From Halalkalibacter krulwichiae (GTDB lineage: Bacteria; Bacillota; Bacilli; Bacillales; Bacillaceae_D), in the NCBI RefSeq assembly GCF_002109385.1, contig NZ_CP020814.1:4177501-4241500 (forward strand): DNA of 64,000 nucleotides. Reading direction: 5' to 3'. This document shows, one piece after another, positions 28,440-33,737 of this stretch. How positions within the stretch are numbered: position 1 is the stretch's first letter; each line of letters starts with the position of its first letter. The notes beneath the pieces were generated by a model. That model ran no database searches, had not been told where the DNA came from, and saw nothing but the letters and a program-made list of their open reading frames with translations. The translations under genes and the position numbers were made by a program.

Positions 28440-28790
28440 TCATTTATTCATAAACGATTTGATTTCTTCTTCTGACATAGATGAATCGCATTTCACTGTT
28501 ACTGTGTCACCATTGGTATAGATGAAACCGGGAACCGTTGGAATACCGTATTCATTACGGAAAGCCGTAATGCCTGCCATATCAGACTGTTCCACACTAT
28601 TTACATAATAAATGTGAGTGTTCGTTTCTTCAGCAATCTTTTTTAATTTTTTAATGAATATTTGACAATAAGGACAGACAGCCTTGCCAATATAGATAAC
28701 GGCCTCTCCTTCCCCTTTTATCAATTCCTGCGCTTTGGTCGAATTAATTTTATCAAAACGAACTACATTTTCTTCATAAGTCGCAATCAT
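28440..28790 (-). CDS. Thioredoxin-like protein (PedC-type)
   Basis: A 116-residue thioredoxin fold. A CPYC active site lies in YIGKAVCPYCQIFIKKLKKI (about 34-53), and the cis-Pro is in YGIPTVPGFIY (about 82-92). CPYC is the glutaredoxin-type motif; the overall shape resembles the bacteriocin accessory/PedC group. There is no signal peptide. It lies 55 bp downstream of gshF on the same strand, so a glutathione-linked reductase role is plausible. Confidence 0.8.
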   Translation of the reverse strand: MIATYEENVVRFDKINSTKAQELIKGEGEAVIYIGKAVCPYCQIFIKKLKKIAEETNTHIYYVNSVEQSDMAGITAFRNEYGIPTVPGFIYTNGDTVTVKCDSSMSEEEIKSFMNK

Positions 28791-28845
28791 TCCTCAATCT
28801 CCTCTTACTATTATTTTGACCATGCCTTAATCACTTTATCTTCAT

Positions 28846-31164
28846 TTAACAGCCTACCGTTGTGAACCCGTCTTTTACTACTCGTTTGACTGACTTGGAT
28901 TCCTGACTTTGTAATAGTTCGGGGAATAAATAATGGATGATATGCATTGTTAACCGTCGAGATTCACCTTTATATGGATATATATGCATATACATAGATG
29001 GGTTAAAATTCGCTTCAATAATTCCATAAGCGTTTTCATGATCTGCAGGAACCTCTGTATTTTCAATAATCAAATCAATGCCACAAATTTTCACCCCGAG
29101 TGCGGATACCGCATCCACTGCTATTTTTTTATAATCTTCAGGAATTTGATCAGTCACATCAATCGAATCTCCGCCTGTACTAATATTGGAGTTTTCACGC
29201 AGATAAATGATTTCACCTTCTTGTGGGATCGAATCCATTCCATATCCTTGACCTTTAAGCATGAGGTTCTCTAATTCACCTAATTGAATTTTTTCTAAAG
29301 GTGTTCGATGGTCTTTTCCTCTTAACGGATCACGGTTTTTTTGCATAACTAACTCTTCAATTGAATGGTTACCGTCACCTTTAACATTCGCAGGAATTCG
29401 TAATAAAACAGCATAAACTTTATCCTCTAACACAAAGAACCGATATTCTGTTCCATTGATAAATTCTTCTATTAATACAGATGAGTCTTCCTTAAATGCT
29501 AGCTTGAGTGCCTTTTGATAATCCTCGTAATTTGCGCCATCTTTGAAGATTGATATTCCTAACCCATAGTTTGTTGTTTTCGGTTTCACAACAAAAGGTT
29601 TCGTGGAGAATAAATGATAGGATCGTAAAGCTTGATCGATTGTTTGAAACTCCTCACCCTTAGGCACTCGAAATCCATGTTGGTGTAGAATTTTCTTTGT
29701 TACTGTTTTATTTTCCATAATTAACGTTGAGACATAATTGTCTTTACTTGTCATATTGCCATTCTTCACATATTCAACATGATCTTTTAATTTCAGCTTC
29801 AAAAATTGATCTTGTCGATCCAAAATTTCTACTTGGATTCCTTGTTGAATTGCATCAAACATAAGAATCTGAGTGGACAACTCCATATCAGTAAAACCTG
29901 CTAATTGATATGGCTTATCCCTTGATTTCTTTTGATTTTGTTTTGCAATTGACGTAGCTACTTGACTTTGACTGCTTTTTTCACTTTCTAGATAAAGTCG
30001 ACCAGCTAAAGTCTTATTTGGATTCATTAGCATTTCTCTTAGATGAACAAATACCGTATCAGAAACAGTTACATCTAAGATCTCTACTAAATTTTCCATT
30101 TCATCAATCATCTTTTTAGCTTCTCTTTCAAATTGTGTGCGCGCCAACGGATGCTCAAGAGCCACTATCTCATTGTTTAAATCACCCATTTTACCCCAAT
30201 CATCACCATATTCTTCATCTTTCCATAATAAATAAAGTAAGAATAGATGGAGAAACTCTATTTGTGTATAACTAATTCCATATGTTTCAAAGGGATTTAA
30301 ATCTATATTGCGCAATTCAATATACTGAACACCATGATCTTTTAAATCTGAAAAATGGTGCCCACCTCTTAACCGAATAGGTGCATAAAATTCCTTTTCT
30401 TCTGATAGAAGCCCTCTTTTAACCATCAAAGATAGATCTGATAGATAGCTTTGGATACTGCTATACGACACTTTAACCTCATCCGCATTGACATAACCGT
30501 ATTTACTGCCTCTAATGCTTCTTACGGCTTTATCCAAAGAATGATATTCGAAAAAATTCTTTTCACTAATAGGAGAAGCCCCATAAAAATATGTTATGAA
30601 CCAGCGGTTGTGTAAATAATTTCTTGTTACCTTTAAATAAATCTCCGCTTTAAACTGTTGGTAATCTTTTATCTCCGATTGTAAGCTGAATAACGCTTGG
30701 AGCAACTCTTCACCGAATTCAAAGTTGAAATGAATTCCGCTAACCATTTGTTTGCGACGGCCATAAGATTGCGATAAAGCTTGCCGATACTTGTAATTCC
30801 CAACATTTTTCAATTTGGCAATCGCAATGTCTTCTTCTTTTTTTGGTAACTGTGGTGGCATGCTTAACGGCCATAGCATTTCATTCTCATCCATAGAACG
30901 ATAAGCAACATCATGGATCGCTGCTAAGTAATGAAACAGATCCTCTACTGTCTCCATAACAGGTGTGATGAATTCCAGTTGTGTTTCTGAAAAATCTCGT
31001 TGAATATATGGATGATCATCTTTTAATGTAATGCTTGTAGGATGATCTGTTTTAGCTAGATTTCCCGACAAGTCGACTCGATGACTTTCTTTCTCTATCC
31101 CATAACGGGCTTTTAATAAATATGATTTCACACGCTCATTAGCTAACATTTTTTTCAAATCCAT
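28846..31164 (-). CDS. gshF: Bifunctional glutamate-cysteine ligase / glutathione synthetase
   Basis: A 772-residue fused enzyme making glutathione in two ATP-dependent steps. The start ATG 31164 has GGGGGAG upstream. The N-terminal gamma-glutamylcysteine ligase part (about 1-430) shows LLKARYGIEKESHRV, SGIHFNFEF and IELRNIDLNPFETYGI. The C-terminal ATP-grasp part (about 480-755) shows RFFVLEDKVYAVLLRIPANV and FNPSMYMHIYPYKG. Length is as in Listeria and Streptococcus GshF. It lies between a CPYC thioredoxin-like gene and the glutathione-dependent formaldehyde genes. Confidence 0.93.
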   Translation of the reverse strand: MDLKKMLANERVKSYLLKARYGIEKESHRVDLSGNLAKTDHPTSITLKDDHPYIQRDFSETQLEFITPVMETVEDLFHYLAAIHDVAYRSMDENEMLWPLSMPPQLPKKEEDIAIAKLKNVGNYKYRQALSQSYGRRKQMVSGIHFNFEFGEELLQALFSLQSEIKDYQQFKAEIYLKVTRNYLHNRWFITYFYGASPISEKNFFEYHSLDKAVRSIRGSKYGYVNADEVKVSYSSIQSYLSDLSLMVKRGLLSEEKEFYAPIRLRGGHHFSDLKDHGVQYIELRNIDLNPFETYGISYTQIEFLHLFLLYLLWKDEEYGDDWGKMGDLNNEIVALEHPLARTQFEREAKKMIDEMENLVEILDVTVSDTVFVHLREMLMNPNKTLAGRLYLESEKSSQSQVATSIAKQNQKKSRDKPYQLAGFTDMELSTQILMFDAIQQGIQVEILDRQDQFLKLKLKDHVEYVKNGNMTSKDNYVSTLIMENKTVTKKILHQHGFRVPKGEEFQTIDQALRSYHLFSTKPFVVKPKTTNYGLGISIFKDGANYEDYQKALKLAFKEDSSVLIEEFINGTEYRFFVLEDKVYAVLLRIPANVKGDGNHSIEELVMQKNRDPLRGKDHRTPLEKIQLGELENLMLKGQGYGMDSIPQEGEIIYLRENSNISTGGDSIDVTDQIPEDYKKIAVDAVSALGVKICGIDLIIENTEVPADHENAYGIIEANFNPSMYMHIYPYKGESRRLTMHIIHYLFPELLQSQESKSVKRVVKDGFTTVGC

Positions 31165-33252: not shown

Positions 33253-33374
33253 ATGAATCCCTTCCTTCTCTTGTTTTCTCATTTACATTTTCATAATCAC
33301 ACATTATAATAGTTCAGACAATACTGATATTTCTGTCACTATAAAAGGAATAACAGGGAAAGGGGTAACAATAT
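33253..33374. promoter_or_regulatory. adhC-hxlR divergent control region
   Basis: On the - strand a perfect -10 TATAAT (33303-33308) lacks a good -35, which would fit an activator-dependent adhC promoter. The HxlR family includes the formaldehyde-responsive activator of hxlAB in B. subtilis. No convincing palindrome is visible. Confidence 0.4.
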
Positions 33375-33737
33375 ATGGAAATATCTTATAAAGAAAAAAC
33401 TTTTTTCACTAACAAAGACTTGGCTTTATCAGTGATAGGTGGCCGCTGGAAAATCGCAATTATATGGTGTCTGCTTCAACAGTCTCCATTAAGATTAAGT
33501 GAAATACAAAGTTACCTTCCCGAAGTCAATCAACGTATGTTAATTAGACAATTAAGAGAATTAGAGGAAGATAAAATTGTTACTAGAGTTGTATACCCGG
33601 TTGTACCTCCTAAAGTGGAGTATCAACTAAGTGAAGTTGGTTTACTGCTAGAACCCGTAGTAACTTCCATTTGTGATTGGGGAGATCATTTCAGAACATT
33701 TTTGGAAGAAAACTCCGCTGAAACATCAGGTAAATAA
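33375..33737 (+). CDS. HxlR-family regulator
   Basis: A 120-residue winged-helix protein. The HxlR signature (DLALSVIGGRWKIAIIWCLL, then VNQRMLIRQLRELEEDKIVT) and the PPKVEYQLSEVGLLL wing are clear. A single Cys (residue 32) precedes the recognition region, as in other redox- or aldehyde-sensing HxlR members. A second Cys is at about 103. AGGGGTAA precedes the ATG. Divergence from adhC-fghA suggests control of formaldehyde detoxification; direct sensing is inference. Confidence 0.88.
   Translation: MEISYKEKTFFTNKDLALSVIGGRWKIAIIWCLLQQSPLRLSEIQSYLPEVNQRMLIRQLRELEEDKIVTRVVYPVVPPKVEYQLSEVGLLLEPVVTSICDWGDHFRTFLEENSAETSGK

Follow-up and report, generated by a model that had tools for sequence, protein, structure and literature searches.

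Formaldehyde and glutathione combine spontaneously; the class III alcohol dehydrogenase AdhC converts the adduct, S-hydroxymethylglutathione, to S-formylglutathione, from which FghA releases formate and free glutathione. AdhC also reduces S-nitrosoglutathione (GSNO). NmlR, the regulator of the nmlR-adhC-estD genes of Neisseria and Haemophilus, is of the MerR type, unlike the HxlR-family regulator of the cassette described here. The nmlR-adhC-estD genes join adhC and an S-formylglutathione hydrolase gene to a divergent regulator, are glutathione-dependent and have been proposed to spread by horizontal transfer; Bacillus subtilis is stated to lack estD (PMC4776306). In B. subtilis, hxlR-hxlAB serves formaldehyde detoxification through ribulose monophosphate (RuMP) enzymes controlled by HxlR, in which formaldehyde links Cys11 to Lys13 by a methylene bridge, the response being lost in either mutant, C11A or K13A (PMC7835342), and adhA-yraA with AdhR provides thiol-dependent formaldehyde oxidation with bacillithiol as the thiol. 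The locus reported here lies in a window of 64,000 nucleotides (the whole stretch of DNA analysed) from the single-contig, 4.61 Mb genome of Halalkalibacter krulwichiae (NZ_CP020814.1, positions 4,177,501 to 4,241,500). It is a block of five genes, best explained, at a probability of about 0.8, as a horizontally mobile formaldehyde detoxification operon that brings its own cofactor, glutathione. The genes are as follows.

28440..28790, minus strand: bta/tlp-like gene, 116 aa, CPYC thioredoxin-like protein, accessory
28846..31188, minus strand: gshF (gshAB), 780 aa, bifunctional glutamate-cysteine ligase / glutathione synthetase
31299..32147, minus strand: fghA, 282 aa, S-formylglutathione hydrolase
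32137..33282, minus strand: adhC, 381 aa, class III alcohol / S-(hydroxymethyl)glutathione dehydrogenase
33375..33737, plus strand: HxlR/DUF24-family regulator, 120 aa, PF01638, N-terminal sensor Cys missing, with Lys14, Cys32 and Cys100

With nmlR-adhC-estD the block shares both enzyme genes and the divergent arrangement of the regulator; it differs from that system, whose hosts are Gram-negative, in its glutathione synthase gene, none being named in the sections of PMC4776306 drawn on here. The regulator family, the nearest solved relative and the link to formaldehyde detoxification are common to the block and hxlR-hxlAB, and a divergent hxlR-hxlA pair of that kind is also present elsewhere in this genome; Cys11 is absent from the cassette regulator. 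The adhA-yraA system differs in its thiol and its regulator. Streptococcus mutans Tlp, reported to be S-glutathionylated at C38, C41 and C100, is described as highly homologous to Bta, which has the same three Cys (C-P-Y-C plus C100); the cassette protein likewise has CPYC and a third Cys, and the part of the source used here mentions no link of Tlp or Bta to formaldehyde genes (PMC7410335). An open-access literature search found no earlier description of the cassette. What is new, as read from the sequences, is the packaging of the pathway with the synthase of its own thiol in predicted bacillithiol makers, together with a common operator-like element and an HxlR-type regulator that lacks the defining sensing feature.

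Gene content and recurrence of the cassette

All five open reading frames were found in place and their families agreed with the initial annotation, which had described GshF, a CPYC protein, AdhC, FghA and a divergent HxlR as one block; adhC and fghA share 11 bp (32137-32147). GshF scored 1114 bits against the NCBIfam model NF002688 (cut-off 425) and 923 bits against TIGR01435 (cut-off 656), residues 20-755 aligning to model positions 1-719, so that the two-domain protein is full length; its solved relatives are 3ln7 and 3ln6. FghA scored 360 bits against the S-formylglutathione hydrolase model TIGR02821 (NCBIfam, cut-off 282), with 4b6g ('putative esterase') as nearest solved structure and the S-formylglutathione hydrolase 6jzl as the next. 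AdhC reached 698 bits with the model of the glutathione enzyme (TIGR02818, NCBIfam, cut-off 544) and 237 bits, under the cut-off of 513, with that of the mycothiol enzyme (TIGR03451); its top solved relatives are class III enzymes. Aligned to human class III dehydrogenase, AdhC keeps D55, E57 and R114 and has Ser for Q111 (numbering of the human enzyme). The 116-aa CPYC protein matched three thioredoxin models, each under its cut-off, and the PedC_BrcD model with 39 bits (cut-off 120); among solved structures it is closest to 1zma (E 3.2e-27), pneumococcal Bta, which is titled 'bacterocin transport accessory protein'. Relation to Bta, the CPYC motif and the third Cys, the features by which Bta/Tlp proteins are recognised, are all present, and among 20 full-length copies from cassettes CPYC was found in 19 and CPFC in one, with the third Cys in every copy. 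At the GshF C-terminus (window 28846-28900), some cassette copies were seen to bear a tail of about 20 residues, often ending in Cys, which most others lack.

For the recurrence of the block, bacterial genomes were scanned with GshF; 227 relatives were obtained and the best 80 loci kept, of which 38 with a GshF at least 70% identical were defined as cassette-type, the other 42 (lactic acid bacteria, Pasteurellaceae and others) having GshF of 47-61% identity. Both adhC and fghA were found in the flank of 37 of the 38 cassette-type loci, as against 0 of the 42 loci with the remoter GshF, which also bifunctionally synthesizes glutathione; hxlR and bta were likewise absent from the examined flanks of those 42. 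An hxlR gene was present at 35 of the 38 (at locus L031 in two pieces) and bta at 19, some loci being cut by contig ends. Of the three loci lacking hxlR, L012 and L022 end inside or just before adhC and L071 has no close adhC; at L022 (Clostridium tagluense) hxlR sits at the end of another contig. Carriers are spread over Bacillaceae, Paenibacillaceae and Planococcaceae and include C. tagluense. A sample of 299 genomes of the order was also surveyed, with scoring limited to each genome's best preliminary candidates. The four genomes with an AdhC at least 93% identical were exactly those with a GshF at least 79% identical (Fisher p 3e-9); six other genomes had GshF of 42-48% and no AdhC at threshold. 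The five-gene block is a recurring cassette, and chance clustering of its genes is ruled out by the recurrence of the arrangement across Bacillales. A different GshF (42%) was seen on Paenibacillus lautus plasmid pAZOPL1 (L098), amid trxB, ArsR-type regulator genes and arsenic resistance genes, and is thus another gshF inside a detoxification island.

Signs of transfer and the host background

The distribution is patchy, with this GshF in 4 of 41 genomes of the family and 3 of 13 of the genus. Pairwise distances were compared over 32 genomes complete for HxlR, AdhC, FghA, GshF and BshC (out of 34 with BshC fetched): the four cassette proteins correlated with one another at r 0.65-0.86 and with host BshC at 0.14-0.25. 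The cassette DNA is 92% identical over 5.26 kb to that of Halalkalibacter alkalisediminis, as against 79% for cwlJ-gerQ in a genus-mate (G014) that, to judge by its identical match to the cassette, is apparently the same genome. At fourfold sites, the cassette genes are 71-88% identical to those of H. alkalisediminis and 65-87% to those of Alkalihalobacillus deserti (bta not found there), the corresponding ranges for gerQ, cwlJ and bshC being 41-55% and 38-57%. A cwlJ match was obtained in 10 of the 13 genomes of the genus, the genome under study included, and the nine genus-mates were compared: cwlJ and gerQ lie side by side in all nine, homology to the window stops at 28212-28236 in every one, and none has the cassette beside cwlJ. 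The two genus-mates that bear the cassette have it on contigs other than that of cwlJ-gerQ. The far flank differs, so that no exact empty site could be assigned.

The putative limits of the cassette are ends of BLAST homology and vary somewhat among carriers. On the left, four bta-bearing carriers gave 28360-28418, while two that have no bta match gave 28761 and 28815, L009 (two copies) being cut by a contig end. On the right the ends fall at 33712-33807; three distinct carriers gave 33800-33807, and four others 33341-33743 for the main or second piece. Plasmid copies were found in Cytobacillus oceanisediminis, where no full-length hxlR frame was recovered, and in Paenibacillus crassostreae on pPC01, with gfa (annotated as formaldehyde-glutathione adduct enzyme) added to the set, and on pPC02, in decayed form. 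The cassette (GshF 75.8%) is also found on CP079755.1, recorded as 'Klebsiella grimontii' plasmid pNY3A (L096, L099); the SASP and Spo0E-family genes on this record suggest that the assembly is mixed or mislabelled and the plasmid of Bacillus type, and transfer to Proteobacteria was therefore discounted. IS66-type transposase genes lie at window 43606-45590, about 10 kb from the cassette. That the genes of the block might have arrived together, as had been proposed at the outset, is well supported by the congruent cassette distances with their weak match to BshC, by the two genus-mates with the cassette away from cwlJ and by the plasmid copies; the cassette appears to move as one unit between Bacillus-like bacteria.

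The recipients are predicted to make another thiol. A bshC gene was found in this genome (567 bits) and, among the 35 carriers searched, in 34, all but C. tagluense; 37 carriers were then known, and the metagenome-assembled genomes of L012 and L028 were set aside. Two thiols, bacillithiol and glutathione, are therefore predicted in carriers, as the initial annotation had supposed, the prediction of bacillithiol being drawn from the single gene bshC. An hxlA gene above cut-off was present in 10 of the 35, with two copies here, one adjoining a canonical HxlR gene and the other about 4 kb from one, so the cassette would have been added to predicted bacillithiol makers and, in this case, to a cell that has the RuMP route. 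The suggested parallel with formaldehyde-responsive HxlR control of RuMP genes is imperfect, because the cassette regulator lacks the Cys that HxlR needs for sensing. The two hxlA genes and two near-identical canonical HxlR genes lie at 1255250-1256398 and 2979988-2984767 of the chromosome (G000:C1; L157, L158, L136); a 414-aa frame near the first hxlA is transposase-like by eye, and together with the paired hxlA/HxlR genes this indicates that the RuMP operon may be duplicated or mobile.

The divergent regulator and the operator-like element

The regulator is a PF01638 HxlR protein whose best solved relative is HxlR itself (7bzd, E 2.6e-28). Residue positions were counted by hand from the alignment with 7bzd, using the numbering of PMC7835342. 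In 37 full-length cassette regulators the position of Cys11 is held by Thr (33), Ser (3) or Asn (1), and none has a Cys ahead of the Lys; Lys13 is kept in all 37, the position of Tyr99 is Cys in all 37 and that of His31 is Cys in 36. The C. tagluense regulator, which is outside this set, has the same pattern by eye. FNCEKEL and the Tyr are both retained in the two canonical HxlR proteins encoded elsewhere in this genome. Sensing must therefore differ from that of HxlR. Tyr99 of one HxlR subunit faces helix 1 of the other (PMC7835342), so an intersubunit bridge between Cys100 and Lys14, formed by formaldehyde, would be possible.

The intergenic region and the end of hxlR contain the following features.

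33321..33339, minus strand: operator-like element GTGACAGAAATATCAGTAT between hxlR and adhC, an inverted repeat of the TGAC-N6-GTCA type whose second arm here is ATCA
33282..33310, plus strand: predicted hxlR promoter, TTTACA-17-TATAAT, 11 of 12 consensus matches (a consensus match only)
33762..33795, plus strand: downstream of hxlR, a terminator-like inverted repeat with a run of T behind it, seen by eye and not called by the motif scan

GTGACA-N6-TCAGTAT was present in all 37 divergent hxlR-adhC regions (three rearranged loci were left aside), with near-invariant surroundings. The exact pattern gave 53 sites in the 35 carrier genomes as against 2 for the control, four of the 53 looking off-type by their letters (one in G073, three in G065). 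In this genome the exact form occurs once; the pattern relaxed to at most 3 mismatches gave 57 sites and its reversed control 46, so that only the exact site stands out, and a wider regulon in this genome was rejected. At L030, adhC lies on one strand and fghA-gshF on the other, and adhC and fghA each have a copy ahead of them; pPC01 has a single exact element, ahead of fghA, and none was found ahead of its adhC. Two or three copies were counted in 12 of the 37 regions (L010, L011, L015, L018, L019, L023, L027, L029, L033, L037, L060 and L094), and at L010, L011 and L015 the copy on the hxlR side brings DNA of the adhC 5' end. On the C. tagluense contig G053:C72 (L211), at the end opposite hxlR, two operator-like sites (30-48 and 131-149) were seen, perhaps from a second, broken-up copy of the cassette.

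The predicted -10 box of hxlR lies inside the palindrome ATTATAAT (33303-33310), which could also supply a -10 for adhC on the minus strand. The adhC promoter of the window has TATAAT and a -35 box with at best 3 of 6 matches, overlapped by the element; in the whole set of 37 regions the -35 of adhC had 2 to 4 of 6 matches, by a rough scoring that missed the hxlR -35 box of the window which the promoter scan caught. The poor, overlapped -35 of adhC beside a good hxlR promoter suggests that the regulator would activate adhC, as HxlR activates hxlAB.

Away from the cassette, at window 21632-25200, a solute-binding protein gene and a gene for a helix-turn-helix plus periplasmic-binding-protein-like regulator were noted, with a frame between them that is ABC ATPase-like by eye; this set resembles a molybdate or tungstate uptake system.

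Proposed function and rival explanations

The gene set appears equipped to run in the manner of the known glutathione-dependent pathway. GshF would make glutathione in a cell whose predicted native thiol is bacillithiol, AdhC and then FghA would convert the glutathione-formaldehyde adduct to formate and free the glutathione, and the Bta/Tlp-like protein would probably handle glutathione mixed disulfides. The divergent regulator is predicted to bind the TGAC-N6-GTCA type operator and so switch the operon, probably by activating adhC while limiting its own gene; the trigger would be formaldehyde or a related electrophile, sensed by a route other than a Cys11-Lys13 bridge. On this basis, we infer glutathione production and formaldehyde resistance in carriers. 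As a more speculative extension, less likely than not, glutathione might be made on demand, solely in the presence of formaldehyde, beside standing bacillithiol; the sensor Cys would have been relocated from position 11 in helix 1 to helix 5 (Cys100, at Tyr99 of HxlR), and formaldehyde would bridge Cys100 to Lys14 of the other subunit.

It is improbable that AdhC and FghA use bacillithiol or several thiols and that GshF is a passenger giving a general redox buffer. The presence of bshC in nearly all carriers fits that account, as does the description of B. subtilis AdhA as bacillithiol-dependent in the part of PMC11577753 used here; against it, AdhC scores as a glutathione enzyme with three of the four class III residues checked, and AdhC of high identity was accompanied by cassette GshF in four of four genomes in the survey. 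Every adhC-fghA locus found has gshF, although the search started from GshF and could show no other. For an operon that chiefly serves GSNO or another electrophile, formaldehyde being secondary, speak the replacement of the formaldehyde-sensing Cys11 in all cassette regulators, the role as GSNO reductase proposed for AdhC, and the GSNO sensitivity of N. gonorrhoeae estD mutants (PMC4776306); that account is unlikely, as fghA accompanies adhC almost throughout, the known substrate of FghA is S-formylglutathione, and gfa joins the gene set on pPC01. An old Bacillales operon inherited vertically and lost from most lineages would agree with the wide spread over three families and with a BshC-AdhC correlation above zero, but it is highly improbable: vertical inheritance as the main account was rejected on the distances with their poor congruence to BshC, on the different locations in genus-mates, on the plasmid copies, on the presence in C. 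tagluense, on the DNA identity of cassette and cwlJ-gerQ and on the fourfold sites.

Several observations count against a mobile operon that carries its own cofactor. One of the 299 genomes has AdhC (74%) and FghA (50%) and no GshF match at threshold, so AdhC-FghA pairs may use another thiol, and the GshF-based locus search was blind to adhC-fghA loci without gshF; conversely, L071 has retained gshF and bta but just a fragment of fghA, and adhC is not close by. The two hxlA genes already in the host put the need for an additional formaldehyde route in doubt. No glutathione reductase passed the TIGR01421 cut-off in the 35 carriers, which says little, since the model recovered one in just 1 of 14 control genomes. 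The BshC-AdhC correlation (0.249) lies narrowly above the best of 999 permutations (0.24), the sole BshC value to do so, and BshC, being fast-evolving, is a rough yardstick of host descent. No recombinase gene lies within the five-gene unit.

Thiols of low molecular weight are usually taken as fixed traits of a lineage. Here a thiol synthase appears to travel with the sole pathway that needs it, into predicted makers of another thiol, and the question of why a cell should have two thiols becomes directly testable by gene deletion. A canonical HxlR with Cys11 and Lys13 and its Cys-less, Lys-keeping cassette relative coexist in one genome, a natural comparison from which to learn whether that Cys is required for sensing formaldehyde.

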